A stretch of 64,000 nt of DNA from NCBI GenBank assembly GCA_947503625.1, contig CANNEK010000001.1, positions 800,152-864,151 on the forward strand. The letters are read 5' to 3'. The translations under genes were made by a program, and so were the position numbers. The notes under the pieces are model-generated. The model saw only the letters and a list, made by a program, of their open reading frames with translations, searched no databases and had not been told where the DNA came from. This document shows positions 1 through 43,263 of this stretch, one piece after another (the first letter of the stretch is position 1; each line of letters opens with the position of its first letter). The DNA is from an uncultured Kordiimonas sp. (GTDB lineage Bacteria; Pseudomonadota; Alphaproteobacteria; Sphingomonadales; Kordiimonadaceae).

Positions 1-396
1 CTGAGCACCAACGTTGGTTTCCTGGCCTACACATACCCCGGCGCTTCAGACAATTCAGATTACTATGAAGTATATGGGTCCGTTGGTGGCTCGCTTGACA
101 CCGTGAGCTGGTCACTGGGGGCAAACTATGCCTTCGAACAAGACGGCACCGGCGACCAGGACAATATCTATCTCTATCTGAGCACCAGCACACCCATTGG
201 CAAAACACCCTTCTACGTGACAGGCAATATTGCCTACGAGGACGGTGCATTTGGAACCGACAAATGGGATTGGCTACTGGGGCTCAATTATTCGTTCAAA
301 CAACTCTCTCTCTCAGTCAATTACATCGACACAGCCAATTCACAAACCAGCTCTGGTAACGCTGGGGTGATTGGCATGCTGTCCGCAAGTTTTTAA
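1..396 (+). CDS. TorF-family putative porin, C-terminal part (5' end outside window)
   Basis: The open frame runs from base 1 to a TAA at 394-396, so only the last 131 residues are present. The sequence alternates polar and aromatic residues in short strands, for example SLGANYAF, LYLSTSTPIG, FYVTGNIAYE and LLGLNYSF. It ends in Phe (MLSASF), the usual terminal signal of outer-membrane beta-barrels. The pattern agrees with the TorF/TIGR02001 family of proteobacterial putative porins, a family of unknown substrate. Within this fragment GTG at 103 could be mistaken for a start, but the frame is open upstream. The gene is followed after 47 bases by a tandem structured RNA element that may be made from its 3' untranslated region. 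The family call is moderately sure. Confidence 0.75.
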   Translation: MSTNVGFLAYTYPGASDNSDYYEVYGSVGGSLDTVSWSLGANYAFEQDGTGDQDNIYLYLSTSTPIGKTPFYVTGNIAYEDGAFGTDKWDWLLGLNYSFKQLSLSVNYIDTANSQTSSGNAGVIGMLSASF

Positions 397-443: not shown

Positions 444-612
444 GCCCGACTTTCCCATTGTCGGGCTGCACAGATGGCAAACCGGCACCGAGGTTCTCTC
501 TCCCCGACGTGCTGGCGAGCCAATAGCAAGCCCGCACTTCCCATGTTAAGGGCTGCACAGATGGCATGCTGACGTAACGGATCTCTCTCCCCAGACCGTC
601 AGCATGCCTTTT
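444..612 (+). ncRNA. Tandem pair of structured RNA units with anti-Shine-Dalgarno loops
   Basis: Two units about 87 bases apart share one plan. Unit 1 has hairpin A (GCCCGAC 444-450 with GTCGGGC 460-466, loop containing TTCCCAT), the linker GGGCTGCACAGATGGCA (463-479), and hairpin B (CCGGCAC 482-488 with GTGCTGG 509-515, extended by TGGC 475-478 with GCCA 519-522). Unit 2 has AGCCC 529-533 with GGGCT 550-554, the same 17-base linker at 550-566, and a perfect 12-bp stem (563-574 with 597-608) followed by TTTT. The B-stems differ in sequence yet both pair, while both B-loops keep TCTCTCTCCCC (495-505 and 582-592). This loop is complementary to GGGGAGAGA-type ribosome-binding sites. Unit 2 also looks like the transcription terminator of the porin gene. 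It is probably a 3'UTR-derived or independent small RNA; no known family was recognised. Confidence 0.6.
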
Positions 613-699: not shown

Positions 700-1980
<1,281 letters not shown>

Positions 1981-15778: not shown

Positions 15779-16555
15779 CTATTTGAAGAGGCTGTTCAGA
15801 TATCCGCCAAGCCTGACCCCACCTTTTGAAAGCTGGCTTTTGATCAGTGGCATGTATTTGTATACGTAATCCCATGACAGGATTCCGGTGCTGTTGGCAT
15901 AAATATCATCTCTAAGCTCAAGGCCTTCATGAACCCAATCAATGGGCTGTGCCTTTTGCCAGTCGGTGATCATTTCCGGTTTTATCTTGCGTTCAAGGAA
16001 ACGAGTCCATTCTGTGTAAGACAAATCTCTATGATCTATAAGATGCTCATCCCAAAGCCGATGAAGGTTTGTAAGTTCTTCCATGAAAACGACATCAACC
16101 CAATTACCACCGCGGTCTCCGGGATAGCCAACATGAAGTGGCTGATGCAAGTCACCAACAATATGAACCACGAACCAAAGAGCTCGCTTCCTGTCTTCAA
16201 GTGATGCTGTATCGTCGGTCAATACGGCTGAATATTTTTCAAGGGCCGCAAAAGCGTCACCAGCGGGATTTTTCTCGCTTTCTTCATAAGTCTGGCCTGG
16301 CGGTACATTTATATAATGGTATGGATTGGCTTCAACTTGCCAAAACTCGTCGGGGTTTGAACGCATTTCGTCAGGAAGTGTTGCAACTTCAGCTAAAAAA
16401 TCATCTTCCAGAATACTGTCAACCGCAGCGCGTGCCTCAGGTGTCAGGTAACCATAGGCAAGTTCAGCAATAACCCGGTGGCCTGTTGGACCGTAAGCTT
16501 GTGCTGGCGCCCCGAAACAACTCAGCGCAAGCAACGCAATGATAATAAATCTCAC
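15779..16555 (-). CDS. Secreted S1/P1-family nuclease
   Basis: This family comprises zinc enzymes that cut single-stranded DNA/RNA and can remove 3'-phosphates. The GTG start at 16555 opens a signal peptide (RFIIIALLALSCFGAPAQA). Cleavage would leave YGPTGH, giving the N-terminal residue and His that bind zinc in the family. Further ligands are visible in LPDEM, HYINVP, HIVGDLHQPLHVG and LHRLWDEHLI. The length (258) fits bacterial members. The ribosome site GGGGAGAGAC (minus strand, 16567-16558) is an exact 9-base complement of the loop of the RNA at 444-612. The start lies 32 bases after the phosphopentomutase stop, so it is the likely last gene of the nucleoside operon and would supply nucleotides from outside nucleic acids. 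Confidence 0.88.
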   Translation of the reverse strand: MRFIIIALLALSCFGAPAQAYGPTGHRVIAELAYGYLTPEARAAVDSILEDDFLAEVATLPDEMRSNPDEFWQVEANPYHYINVPPGQTYEESEKNPAGDAFAALEKYSAVLTDDTASLEDRKRALWFVVHIVGDLHQPLHVGYPGDRGGNWVDVVFMEELTNLHRLWDEHLIDHRDLSYTEWTRFLERKIKPEMITDWQKAQPIDWVHEGLELRDDIYANSTGILSWDYVYKYMPLIKSQLSKGGVRLGGYLNSLFK

Positions 16556-16587
16556 AAGTCTCTCCCCATCATGGTGCTTTCGTGCAC

Positions 16588-30491: not shown

Positions 30492-30507
30492 CTGACCCTT
30501 TGGTCAA
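30492..30507 (-). promoter_or_regulatory. RutR-like operator upstream of deoC
   Basis: Read on the minus strand, TTGACCAAAGGGTCAG matches 12 of 14 defined positions of the E. coli RutR consensus TTGACCANNTGGTCAA. It lies 46-61 bases before the deoC GTG and overlaps the last codons of the permease gene. TTGACC here could also be the -35 box of a deoC promoter with TTTAAC as -10 after 18 bases, so binding would block transcription. Confidence 0.55.
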
Positions 30508-32123
30508 GATTTGTCTGCTTCTACCGGGCTGTTTTTGCTCAGATTGAAGCCAAAAAGCATCAGCCCCGCGATCAGATACCCGGCAGCAAGACGATGAGGC
30601 AACAGCTCAAGGCCGCCAAGATCACCGATTGCCCAAGGCAGATACATGCCACCTGTCGGTGCAACGGAATGAATAATACCGACTTCGGTGCAAAGCGCCG
30701 CCACCAAGGCCGCCATTGCCGCCCGGACAAGCCTGTTGTCAATGATCCAGACTATCATGGCACCCCAGAGAATGCTTGTGAGGATATACCCTTTGGACAT
30801 AGCACCGAGCAGATTGTATCCGGCGATCCATTCGGCCCCCAGTGTTTGCTGAACCGCAACACCCAATTTGCCATAAAGCTCGGACACCTTGGTGAACGTG
30901 TAGTTCAGGATACCCGGCACAATCGCAAATAAAAGGGCTGGCGCATGGCGAACATCACCGCCTGTGAAAGCCAATCTCATGATATCACAGGCAACCACAA
31001 CCAGAATCGGTTTGAGTACAGCCGCCGGAATCATCTGAGATGCCAGCGCAATAACCCCAAGAAAACCGCCCACTGTAATGACACTCACGGCTCCGATAGC
31101 GTAGTTTGTGCGTGCGCCCATCCGCTTGTAGGTCGCATGACCAAAATAGGGCGTCGTCTGTACAACGCCGCCAAAAAGCGCACTAACGGCTGTTGCCACC
31201 GAATCGATGCGCACCACTTTGCTTGCGTCATACGTGTCACCGATTACCCGGGCACCCGCCACGACATTCACGCTGCTTGCAGCAATCAGCAAAGCGAAGG
31301 GCAGGATAATGCCAAGGTAGTTGGTAACATCACCGAACATGGCGAAAAGCCCGAGGACGCTGGGCTTGGGAACAGCAGCGACCAGTTCCGGGGCTTCCTT
31401 CACCACAAAACTCTCTCCGGCACCTGCAAACGCCAGTATGTAATAGAGGGTCGTGCCGCCAAGAATGGCGATAACAGCGCCCGGCATATTGAAAGGCAGT
31501 TTGTGCCCTGCAATGAGGGCATAGGCCATGATGATCAGCGACACTATGCCCACTTCAGGCAGTTCAAAAACACCGTATATTGCTTCAGCACCCAGCCAGA
31601 CTGTCGCGATTGCTGCCATTGCGCCAATCAGGGCCATCTGCGGTAATTCATGCTGCATGGCGCGCGCAAAGTATGAGAGGCCCATTTTTATAACAGCCAT
31701 CCACAGAGTGCTCGCCATCCCGATAACCCAGGCTTTTTCAGCAGCCTCGACGGCGCCGAGTGTCTCCAGGTTCGCGAGGTAAACCGGCCCCAAAATAAAG
31801 AAACACATGCCAAACACAGTTGGCAGATCAATCCCAAGAGGGATAGAGGTAATGGCTTCGTTCCCGGTTTCGCGTGCCGTTTTTCTGGCAAACCAGATGC
31901 AGACTACGTTACCAAACAGGATGCCTGCAATGGCCCCCGGAATAATGCGCCCGAAAACAATTTCTACCGGGAAACTGAAGGCCCCCAACAGAATGCCCGC
32001 CAATACGAACATGTTGACAACAACATCGAGAAAGAAGGCGAAGCCCGCATTAATATCTGCAGACATCTGCGATTCCGGCGGTGTTGCATCGGCAAACGCG
32101 TTCACGGATGGCTGATCTGACAT
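30504..32123 (-). CDS. NCS2/AzgA-like permease, probably for purines or related bases
   Basis: The 539-residue protein has about 12-13 membrane segments. It resembles the nucleobase-cation symporter-2 family in an AzgA-like arrangement: AITSIPLGIDLPTVFGMCFF early, FALLIAASSVNVVAGARVIG in the middle, and RIDSVATAVSALFGGVVQTT with YFGHATYKRMGARTNYAIGA, the region equivalent to the substrate-binding loop. Such carriers import xanthine, uracil, hypoxanthine or adenine with protons. GGGGGAGAAG precedes the ATG 32123. It stands between the exported adenosine deaminase and deoC, which favours a purine or nucleoside substrate; this is inference. Confidence 0.7.
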   Translation of the reverse strand: MSDQPSVNAFADATPPESQMSADINAGFAFFLDVVVNMFVLAGILLGAFSFPVEIVFGRIIPGAIAGILFGNVVCIWFARKTARETGNEAITSIPLGIDLPTVFGMCFFILGPVYLANLETLGAVEAAEKAWVIGMASTLWMAVIKMGLSYFARAMQHELPQMALIGAMAAIATVWLGAEAIYGVFELPEVGIVSLIIMAYALIAGHKLPFNMPGAVIAILGGTTLYYILAFAGAGESFVVKEAPELVAAVPKPSVLGLFAMFGDVTNYLGIILPFALLIAASSVNVVAGARVIGDTYDASKVVRIDSVATAVSALFGGVVQTTPYFGHATYKRMGARTNYAIGAVSVITVGGFLGVIALASQMIPAAVLKPILVVVACDIMRLAFTGGDVRHAPALLFAIVPGILNYTFTKVSELYGKLGVAVQQTLGAEWIAGYNLLGAMSKGYILTSILWGAMIVWIIDNRLVRAAMAALVAALCTEVGIIHSVAPTGGMYLPWAIGDLGGLELLPHRLAAGYLIAGLMLFGFNLSKNSPVEADKS

Positions 32124-41081: not shown

Positions 41082-43202
41082 TTAAAACTGGCCCGCGATT
41101 GTCAGTGAAACGAAAGCGCCTCTGTCCCGGTCAATGACTTCGGAGCCTGAGAGAGCACCCGCGCGACTCGGTTCAAAAAACGTGCGCTCGCGGAAGAAAT
41201 TACGGCCTCCCACACTGCGGAATTCAAGCGTGGTTCTCCAGCCCTTAAGGTGTGCGGACTGGATGAACATGCGCCATTGTTCTCCTGTTCGGGTGAAGCT
41301 TTCTTCATTGGCAAAGAAAAAGCGCCGCTTCAAAGGTGCCCTGTAGGAAAATCCCCATGCCAGCTTCTTTTCAGGCAGGTCCTGCCGAAATTCAGCGAGT
41401 AGAGTTGGTGACGATACGTCCGAGATATCCCTGTTCGTTCCAGACAGAGGGTCGGCGAAATTGGATTCACGAATGTCGAGCTCCAGTTCAAGAAGGCCGC
41501 CCGGAATAACCGGGCCGAGCGGCGCGCTTGCGTTGGCGGTCACCCCCCAAAGTCTGCCGTTTCCTGCGTTGGCGGCACCAAAACCTCCCGATGGCAACCT
41601 CACCTGCTCGATCAGGTCATCCCGCCATTCATGAAACAGTTCGACATTAAGCGCACCCCGTTTCCGGGATCGTAGATCGACCGTAAAGGAAGCGCGCGTC
41701 GTCTGGTCAGGGCCCAAATCCGGATTGCCTGCCAGCAACCTGTCATCTTCAGCCGAGGCAGAAGCGGCAAACTCGCTAAAATCCAGCTGACCAACGGTCC
41801 GGCGCAGGCCCAGCCTGAATTGAAGTCCCGGGCGGAAATCATAAATTGCCGTAGCAAATGGTTTGACAAAGAAAAAGGACTGTCTGCTTTCAGCATCACC
41901 AGAAACAGTAATCTGGGAAATCTCGGCGGCAATTCCCGTCTCTACAGACAACCCGTTTCCAGCCTGCCAGATAAGGTTGGAGTAAGCTTCTCCGCGCAGT
42001 TCTTCCACCAGTACATCTGCCGCTGGCAGGTCGATAACATTGACGCCGTTCGCATCTCGGGTTTCGAGTGATAACTGGCTATCGAGACTGTTATAGGCAA
42101 TCTCGGCGCCCAGTTCCGGACGGAACCTGCCAGCGCCTGCCTTGGCGAGTGACCCGCGAAAAACGGTCTCAAATGTATCCTGCTTGCGTGTGAAGGTTGA
42201 ACCGGAGACCGTTGTACCCACCGGCCGCTCGGTTGACACCAGTTGATCCTGCCCCCAATCCTGGAATGAAGACAGGGATAGCAGTTTCAGAACCCAGGCA
42301 TTGTCCAGTCTGCGGCTCCAGTCGACACCAAATTCACCCTCATAAAACACACTGTTCAGGTCGATAAAAAAGCGGTCATCAGGGTTTTGGTCAGGCAAGC
42401 GTCCGTCAAACCCAAGCCTTTCGGTTTCCGGCAGGAAAGCACTGCGCCCGAACCGGCCCGTCAAGGTTAAAATGCCCTCGCCAACAGGGCGCTCCGCTTC
42501 AGACGAGATAAAGGCTTCGGTAAGAGTGCTTGGCCGGTCCTCAAGCTGGGAAGACAATAAATCACCATTGGCATCAAATTGAGTGCGAGGACCTTTGAGC
42601 GGAAATCTCTCCCAAAACCCGTTTATTTTCGTGGATGTCTTCCAGCCGGAAACCTGCCTTACGACGGTGAGTTCACCACTGGGATAGAGAATGCCGTCTG
42701 CAGCACGTTCCAGCTTCACTTCCCAGCTGCCGGCTGCACCCTGTTTTACCCTGATAACATTGACAACAACTGCCTGACCCGCCGCTTCACCGGACCCTGC
42801 CGACCCCCGGATTACTTCGATCCGTGCTACCTGATTTGCCGGAATACGCCCGAGAGCATCTTCGATACCGCCCACCTTGGACGACGGACGCTCGCCGTCA
42901 ATCAGGACATTACCCGCTGCCCCGCCAAAGCCGCGCAGGTCATCACCTGCATCCAGCGTAAAACCGGGCACACGGTCAATCATGTCCTGTGCCGTTTGAG
43001 GTGTAAACTGATCGAAAAACGACCGCTGATAAACCTGAGCGTTTTCACGCCCGGCAACCAGTGCAGGCTGGCCTGCGTCAGATTGGCCTGCATCCGATTG
43101 ACCTGCATCCGATTGACCGCTTTCCTGCGCCTTTGCTGTCGCCAATGGCAAAACAGCAAGGCAAATGGCTATCGCAAAATGCGATACTGTGTGAGTTCCC
43201 AT
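41082..43202 (-). CDS. TonB-dependent receptor
   Basis: The 706-residue outer-membrane protein has a signal peptide (SHFAIAICLAVLPLATAKA), a short repeat GQSDA x3 (residues 29-43), and a plug domain with QDMIDRVPGFTLDAGDDLRG, NVLIDGERPSSK and ARIEVIRGSAGSGEAAGQAV. A beta-barrel follows, ending FVSLTIAGQF. The ribosome site GGGGAGAGGA is complementary to the RNA loop at 444-612. It is encoded beside a MerC-like protein, a Fur/Zur regulator, two DUF2946-like proteins and a PepSY protein, so a metal or metal-chelate ligand is likely. It was annotated by domain only; the ligand is inferred. Confidence 0.88.
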   Translation of the reverse strand: MGTHTVSHFAIAICLAVLPLATAKAQESGQSDAGQSDAGQSDAGQPALVAGRENAQVYQRSFFDQFTPQTAQDMIDRVPGFTLDAGDDLRGFGGAAGNVLIDGERPSSKVGGIEDALGRIPANQVARIEVIRGSAGSGEAAGQAVVVNVIRVKQGAAGSWEVKLERAADGILYPSGELTVVRQVSGWKTSTKINGFWERFPLKGPRTQFDANGDLLSSQLEDRPSTLTEAFISSEAERPVGEGILTLTGRFGRSAFLPETERLGFDGRLPDQNPDDRFFIDLNSVFYEGEFGVDWSRRLDNAWVLKLLSLSSFQDWGQDQLVSTERPVGTTVSGSTFTRKQDTFETVFRGSLAKAGAGRFRPELGAEIAYNSLDSQLSLETRDANGVNVIDLPAADVLVEELRGEAYSNLIWQAGNGLSVETGIAAEISQITVSGDAESRQSFFFVKPFATAIYDFRPGLQFRLGLRRTVGQLDFSEFAASASAEDDRLLAGNPDLGPDQTTRASFTVDLRSRKRGALNVELFHEWRDDLIEQVRLPSGGFGAANAGNGRLWGVTANASAPLGPVIPGGLLELELDIRESNFADPLSGTNRDISDVSSPTLLAEFRQDLPEKKLAWGFSYRAPLKRRFFFANEESFTRTGEQWRMFIQSAHLKGWRTTLEFRSVGGRNFFRERTFFEPSRAGALSGSEVIDRDRGAFVSLTIAGQF
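43068..43118 (-). repeat. 15-bp tandem repeat in the receptor gene
   Basis: Three copies of a 15-base unit encode GQSDA three times, followed by a partial GQ, right after the signal peptide and before the plug. Units differ at only a few bases. Copy number may vary between strains. Confidence 0.8.
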
Positions 43203-43263
43203 AAATATCCTCTCCCCGTGGATAAAATGACCTGTTCCAGCGACATGCGCTGTCAGGCCTTTT

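Follow-up and report, generated by a model that had tools for sequence, protein, structure and literature searches.

Between a porin gene and an aspC-like aminotransferase gene of Kordiimonas lie two repeated hairpin units with C-rich loops, which raises the question whether they merely form the tail of the porin messenger or make up a regulatory RNA in its own right. The window that we analysed is a stretch of 64,000 nucleotides (contig CANNEK010000001.1, positions 800,152 to 864,151, forward strand). Its genome (G000) is a Kordiimonas, the aspC product being 86% identical to the K. gwangyangensis counterpart, and a genome search assigned 18 further genomes to the genus, 19 in total. At 443-612 of the window, 3' of the TorF-family porin, we found two tandem units, each with hairpin A, a linker and hairpin B in this order, just as a sequence-only reading had described them. 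The repeat copies at 463-505 and 550-592 are 43 nt long, 77% identical and spaced by 87, with the 17-mer GGGCTGCACAGATGGCA identical in both; the window has just two occurrences of TCTCTCTCCCC, at 495-505 and 582-592, and the starts of the two A hairpins (444-458 and 530-544) are 80% alike. On the plus strand, hairpin A of unit 1 spans 443-467 (stem 443-450/460-467, loop TTTCCCATT), its 17-nt linker 463-479 and its hairpin B 476-521, the latter formed by stems 476-478/519-521 and 482-488/509-515 and carrying TCTCTCTCCCC in its C-rich loop. On the same strand, unit 2 consists of hairpin A at 529-554 (stem 529-533/550-554, weak inner pairs, loop TTCCCAT at 538-544), the linker at 550-566 and hairpin B at 563-612, in which a perfect 12-bp inverted repeat (563-574/597-608) closes a loop that holds TCTCTCTCCCC and is followed by TTTT. 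When up to three mismatches were allowed, the genome had 21 matches to the linker: the two in the window at zero mismatches, one at a single mismatch and 18 at three. The one-mismatch site sits within an open reading frame, nitroreductase-like by eye, and was taken as a chance occurrence.

Folding of the region 397-640 gave z = -4.75, with none of 200 shuffles as good, and the whole unit at 441-516 folds at z = -2.12. Two of the four are weak when taken by themselves: in unit 2, hairpin A consists of 5 bp and a further 2 bp inside (z = -1.27), and in unit 1, hairpin B, folded over 484-520, did not surpass its shuffles, 179 of 200 of which did as well (z = +1.11). The two A stems, moreover, have their outer GCCC/GGGC in common, and their changes are confined to the upper parts. 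These points qualify the earlier claim that the stems of the two units have changed in sequence while still pairing, a claim that the covariation described below otherwise bears out. The array lies 3' of an open reading frame on the same strand, as 3'-UTR-derived small RNAs do. Its last hairpin, B of unit 2, is followed by TTTT and is likely the transcript end, but a terminator scan, whose loop limit is 8 bases, reported none at the array. Rfam gave no match in the window at the gathering score, and a lax Rfam scan of 390-690 returned two weak minus-strand matches, both to other families.

In front of the array, the window begins with the 3' portion of a porin gene of the TorF (Gcw_chp) family (1-396, plus strand; PF09694, TIGR02001), whose ATG is upstream of the window at L001:721. 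A stretch at 394-441 leads from the porin stop codon to the first hairpin; in it, the block TTTTAAGTATCTTCCC at 426-441 is a possible candidate for an RNase E entry site. Directly after the stop codon stands GGAGG (397-401, within TAAGGAGG at 394-401) without a start codon behind it, and something similar is seen by eye in several relatives; it could pair in cis with the C-rich loops. On the other side, the aspC-like gene (778-1980, plus strand) is a conserved neighbour and served as the synteny anchor. The sigma54 consensus of the -24/-12 type is TGGCAC-N5-TTGCT, and a promoter of this type precedes the porin at about G000:C1:799760-799775 (L001:647-662), outside the window. Upstream of all 21 porins or porin relics assigned to the aspC locus, the site agrees with the consensus in 10 or 11 of its 11 positions; the set of 21 includes G015 despite a contig break between its parts. 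None of ten other TorF copies examined had it, their best matches reaching 7-8 of 11 positions, while 14 further distant copies lay outside the comparison. Behind the second TorF copy of G024 (L172) stands an extended inverted repeat (GGGCACGGTTTTGGGCA...) that has nothing to do with the C-rich array. Position, synteny and the common sigma54 promoter support the earlier proposal that the RNA originates in the porin 3' region, as far as an origin can be read from sequence. As for NtrC, the best sites in the 21 upstream regions did not exceed those of base-shuffled sequence (P 0.14-0.99), judged by an enterobacterial consensus. A degenerate inverted repeat, TTAATCA-n-TGATTA, lies upstream of the porin promoter at G000:C1 ~799640-799690 (L001 ~530-575) and recurs in relatives by eye; it bears no resemblance to an NtrC site. 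In the related genus represented by G006 (L144), a frame that by eye resembles P-II (GlnK) stands upstream of aspC, in the place of the Kordiimonas porin.

An aspC match was available in 27 of the 29 family genomes, and for the comparison among relatives we took the porin-aspC gap from these loci; two genomes (G018 and G020) were added via their porins. One or two A-B units are present in eight genomes (G000, G009, G016, G021, G022, G023, G025 and G026), which an AspC tree grouped with moderate support (90/92). When the 12 units of these genomes were aligned by sequence only, 195 of 210 cells were paired and 12 of the 18 pairs had changed on both sides; none of 500 shuffles was as high, and slid structures were paired in 25-40%. 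RNAalifold recovered the same two helices from the unit alignment, and of the 11 columns that do not vary, the B loop holds 6. Counted by hand over the 18 pairs, the plus strand shows 16 G.U cells versus 6 A.C cells, and the plus strand is thus favoured as the transcript. The covariance-model search of related genomes that the earlier reading had proposed turned out in its favour, since with paired stems and loops conserved the unit model matched the porin locus in 9 of the 19 genus genomes at E <= 0.011, namely the eight training genomes and G018 (E 0.010). All strong matches (E below 1e-10) were at the porin locus; the others were weaker and scattered, for example one in G003 at E 0.03 and a minus-strand match over the G022 array. 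Under strict filters, the search of 240 genomes of the class returned the own genome and one match at E 0.003, about chance level, with nothing credible in the other 239. Given the covariation, the RNAalifold helices and the covariance-model matches, which strongly support the conserved structured RNA proposed before, we regard a structured, conserved, plus-strand RNA in the 3' region of the sigma54 porin as very likely.

The design reaches beyond the A-B units proper. Nine other genus genomes (G010, G011, G012, G013, G015, G017, G018, G020 and G024, of which G011 and G024 are nearly identical at the locus and not independent) carry different C-rich-loop hairpins at the locus, situated behind the porin or, in G015, before aspC. 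In G010, whose porin-aspC gap is identical to a K. gwangyangensis record over 457 nt, there are five hairpins with CCTTC-type loops (ACCTTCCC, GACCTTCA). To put a number on this, we counted in the folded 3' regions those hairpins that have 6 or more pairs and a C-rich motif in the loop: the 19 genus genomes have 33 against about 3.1 expected, the expectation being the sum of shuffle means from 60 shuffles each, and at least one such hairpin occurs in 15 of the 19. Two of the remaining genomes, G022 and G023, scored zero in this fold count, yet have two units each by the covariance model. The other two, G019 and G014, scored zero as well; the G014 porin lies away from the aspC locus, its 3' flank being the region counted, and the G019 porin is at the aspC locus with a sigma54 site and without an array. 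For G015 the region counted was the stretch before aspC to the contig end, without a sigma54 site, its porin ending another contig. In four genomes from outside the genus, the same fold count gave no C-rich-loop hairpin. Within it, at least 17 of the 19 genomes have covarying stems with kept loops.

Does the RNA matter apart from the porin? Two genomes with a listed completeness of 100%, G021 and G026, gave no TorF match at E <= 1e-15; what separates the sigma54 site from the RNA there is a stretch with only short open frames, recognisably similar in their DNA to the last part of the porin (L123 and L122, respectively). The RNA block is nevertheless 82-83% alike among these two genomes and G025. 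In G016, the porin (L165/L174) is split over two frames, possibly by a sequencing error, and the RNA is intact. Since the porin body has been lost in two genomes while promoter and RNA were kept, the RNA is probably selected for itself, and this retention is the best evidence, drawn from comparison of sequences, that it probably has a function of its own.

We consider it fairly probable that the array is a sigma54-dependent, 3'-UTR-derived small RNA that acts as a multi-seed base-pairing regulator at ribosome sites, with computed support from the covariation of its structure, the conservation of its loops and of the promoter, and the persistence of promoter and RNA after loss of the porin body. 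According to this model, the porin gene would be transcribed from the sigma54 promoter, and its 3' UTR would be a modular structured RNA of repeated hairpins presenting pyrimidine-rich loops (CTCTCTCCCC, TTCCCAT). The RNA may accumulate as a small RNA of ~170-215 nt, either released from the porin mRNA by cleavage or produced together with it. Its loops, as possibly redundant seeds, would then pair with the G-rich Shine-Dalgarno regions of other mRNAs and block their translation, so that switching on the porin, or its remnant promoter, would turn down other uptake or envelope genes. If true, one transcript would link an outer-membrane porin with an alternative sigma factor and with the translational control of other uptake genes. 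A wider reading, which we advance tentatively and with somewhat more doubt than belief, is that of an RNA family which spans the genus and evolves fast: in it, the tail of a sigma54-controlled porin mRNA would have become a modular multi-seed regulator, with anti-Shine-Dalgarno loops changeable in number and letters, and would have outlived the porin, leaving in two species little more of the former porin gene than promoter and leader. The genomes would then form a natural series from mRNA tail to free-standing regulatory RNA, with one A-B unit, two or longer chains, and the porin kept, broken or lost, and their covarying stems with kept loops would offer a clean case for tests of co-evolution with targets.

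A simpler view of the locus is that the hairpins do no more than terminate transcription and keep 3' exonucleases off the porin mRNA, which would make the loops incidental. The last hairpin does close the array and is followed by TTTT, and G004 and G005 have at this place, by eye, just a G+C-rich hairpin and then T's without C-rich loops. However, termination or protection as such would not call for the excess of C-rich-loop hairpins counted above, for a B loop that holds more than half of the invariant columns, or for an RNA kept despite loss of the porin, and we judge this view improbable. Still less can be said for a cis element of the downstream aspC, such as a leader, an attenuator or a riboswitch: the array does lie upstream of aspC on the same strand, but aspC is kept without upstream C-rich-loop hairpins in G001, G002, G003, G014, G006, G007, G008 and G028, and likewise in G019, G027, G004 and G005, which makes such a role very unlikely. 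Finally, units in tandem with a labile copy number are also what a scattered palindromic repeat of the REP/BIME kind, landed here by chance, would look like; against this, the strong matches to the unit model are restricted to the porin locus, and the terminal hairpin shared by G012 and G015 is confined to aspC or porin places, with 5 matches in 29 genomes, so that a repeat of this kind deserves hardly any credence.

The regulator that we favour would act through its loops, and these are complementary to G-rich Shine-Dalgarno stretches. All four targets named in the sequence-only reading have GGGGAGA before their start codons, namely an MFS gene (8138), the S1/P1 nuclease (GTG, 16555), a TonB-dependent receptor (43202) and an SBF/BASS gene (58936). 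On the minus strand, the candidate sites are GGGGAGAGG at 43200-43217, before the ATG of the receptor, and GGGGAGAGA at 16553-16567, before the GTG of the nuclease, both predicted to pair with the loops. A fifth GGGGAGA ribosome site is at 32123; it belongs to a 539-codon frame (30507-32123, ribosome site GGGGGAGAA) for which no Pfam match was obtained at 1e-5. Apart from the loops' own complement, the window has seven GGGGAGA sites, of which five precede a frame of at least 258 codons. Yet the motif is not enriched in the window (nine sites, two of them complements of the loops, versus 5.8 expected; 18 of 100 shuffles had as many), and GGGGAGA is a common ribosome site. In the whole genome, the pattern GGGGAGAG-N2-14-ATG gave 17 rows, or 16 distinct places, and the reversed pattern seven matches as a raw count. 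In 14 of the 16, an open frame of at least 98 codons follows at a spacing of 2-7 nt; two of these fourteen were discarded as lying inside longer genes (plsX-like and DnaJ-like) and not at starts, leaving 12 likely true gene starts. Among them are those of three TonB-dependent receptors recognised by their Plug matches, of two peptidases of the M20 type, of an MFS transporter and an AMP-binding enzyme, and of ribosomal protein L23. However, 45 of 322 sampled genes (14%) have at least 6 bases complementary to the loops, so that specificity is unexplained.

Receptor ribosome sites were compared with background ones in four genomes, using for each its own loops and the Plug matches taken (30 of 48 in G000, 30 of 55 in G010, 15 of 30 in G026 and 15 of 83 in G013). 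The background came from a simple gene caller run on 400 kb of sequence per genome for G000 and G010 and on 200 kb for G026 and G013; from it, 3, 0, 0 and 3 TonB-like genes were removed for G000, G010, G026 and G013, respectively. The choice of starts favours 16S pairing by one rule for both sets, and a few receptor starts are doubtful. The comparison gave p values of 0.0009 (G000), 0.007 (G010), 0.19 (G026) and 0.014 (G013), G000 not being an independent test because the idea of receptors arose from the GGGGAGAG matches in that very genome. Reversed loops matched receptor sites too in G013 (p 0.0067), and an energy-based comparison was likewise mixed, own loops giving p 0.002 for G000 (reversed 0.11) and 0.0017 for G010 (reversed 0.0035). 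Letter-shuffled loops yielded an excess of 0.188 versus 0.260 observed in G000, 0.186 versus 0.189 in G010, 0.064 versus 0.120 in G026 and 0.072 versus 0.272 in G013, and reached the observed difference in 64, 99, 65 and 21 of 200 shuffles, respectively. Preferred targeting of TonB receptors thus found no support: p is below 0.05 in three of the four genomes, but shuffled loops match as well, with an excess that is similar in G000 and G010 and smaller, though not clearly different, in G026 and G013. The apparent preference is not loop-specific, and what the comparison shows is that receptors have G-rich ribosome sites. Of the anti-Shine-Dalgarno role ascribed to the loops earlier, the complementarity stands and pairing with ribosome sites of mRNAs is plausible, whereas loop-specific pairing found no support. 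This last result would also suit loops that serve as landing sites for an RNA-binding protein or as a sponge for a G-rich small RNA and not for ribosome sites, as would identical loops repeated on variable stems, which fit a titration platform; in Caulobacter, the sponge CrfA is described as acting on small RNAs of the anti-Shine-Dalgarno type. No candidate partner is known, however, and the loops vary by species (CTCTCTCCCC, ACCTTCCC, ACCCTCCCC) while all remain complementary to G/A tracts resembling ribosome sites, which leaves the landing-site explanation unlikely.

How does the proposed regulator at ribosome sites relate to known RNAs? A limited literature search on Kordiimonas small RNAs found no description of a porin-tail RNA, which is weak evidence of novelty. 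The loop motif of CcsR is CCUCCUCCC, and the NfeR1/alpha-r14 family is present in Rfam. With CcsR/cuckoo the Kordiimonas RNA has in common the design of tandem hairpins with conserved C-rich loops and divergent stems. It differs in its loops (TCTCTCTCCCC and TTCCCAT in the window versus CCUCCUCCC), in the linked gene (the Gcw_chp/TorF porin PF09694 versus DUF1127) and in the promoter (a conserved sigma54-type site versus RpoH, that is RpoHI/RpoHII), and the paired motif CCTCCTCCC-N20-50-CCTCCTCCC was absent from all 29 family genomes. In the accessible text on the CcsR/CIN1 locus, a protein gene is followed by tandem RNAs and a terminator on the same transcript, with processing by RNase E (PMC10253847), and R. 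sphaeroides RS0680a is described as two stem-loops with an anti-Shine-Dalgarno motif in each (PMC3927594). The kinship to CcsR/cuckoo suggested earlier does not, on loop motif and linked gene, amount to membership: we rejected assignment to CcsR/cuckoo (CIN1), and, as loop motif and linked gene differ, did not file the RNA under NfeR1 either. By analogy, it most likely works like the anti-Shine-Dalgarno RNAs of the cuckoo/CcsR/NfeR1 kind without being one of them.

The likeness to NfeR1/alpha-r14 again consists in a multi-hairpin design with repeated C-rich loops on divergent stems; there, CCUCCUCCC is identical in every hairpin, whereas the window loops lack it, and NfeR1 is a separate transcript. 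The rhizobial RNAs NfeR1/alpha-r14, SmelA075 and SmelA099 are reported to have three or four hairpins with one repeated anti-Shine-Dalgarno loop motif on highly differing stems (PMC10746234, PMC3927594), and NfeR1 itself to have three hairpins with functionally redundant seeds and to be transcribed separately, activated by LsrB and repressed by NtrC (PMC10746234). The small RNAs SisA-D/MmgR of the alpha-R8 family contain a 10-mer of anti-Shine-Dalgarno type, and SisA of Caulobacter represses many targets, direct repression being described for a TonB-receptor reporter; their genomic setting is another one, and the available part of that report mentions no tandem repeat structure (PMC12559287). 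No Rfam match to this family was found in the Kordiimonas window. Enterobacterial GlnZ is freed by RNase E from the glnA 3' UTR of an mRNA with a sigma54 promoter (PMC9731577). The Kordiimonas RNA would likewise be a 3'-UTR RNA of a sigma54 transcript, its promoter being without an NtrC site above chance; the repeated C-rich hairpins of the Kordiimonas RNA have no mention in the available portion of the GlnZ paper (PMC9731577). NrsZ of Pseudomonas aeruginosa, finally, is described as RpoN-dependent and processed into short transcripts, its first 60 nt with one stem-loop being a functional unit, and its conserved motif ACAGGCAG, its activation of rhlA and its gene setting set it apart from the loops and the locus of the Kordiimonas RNA (PMC9308961).
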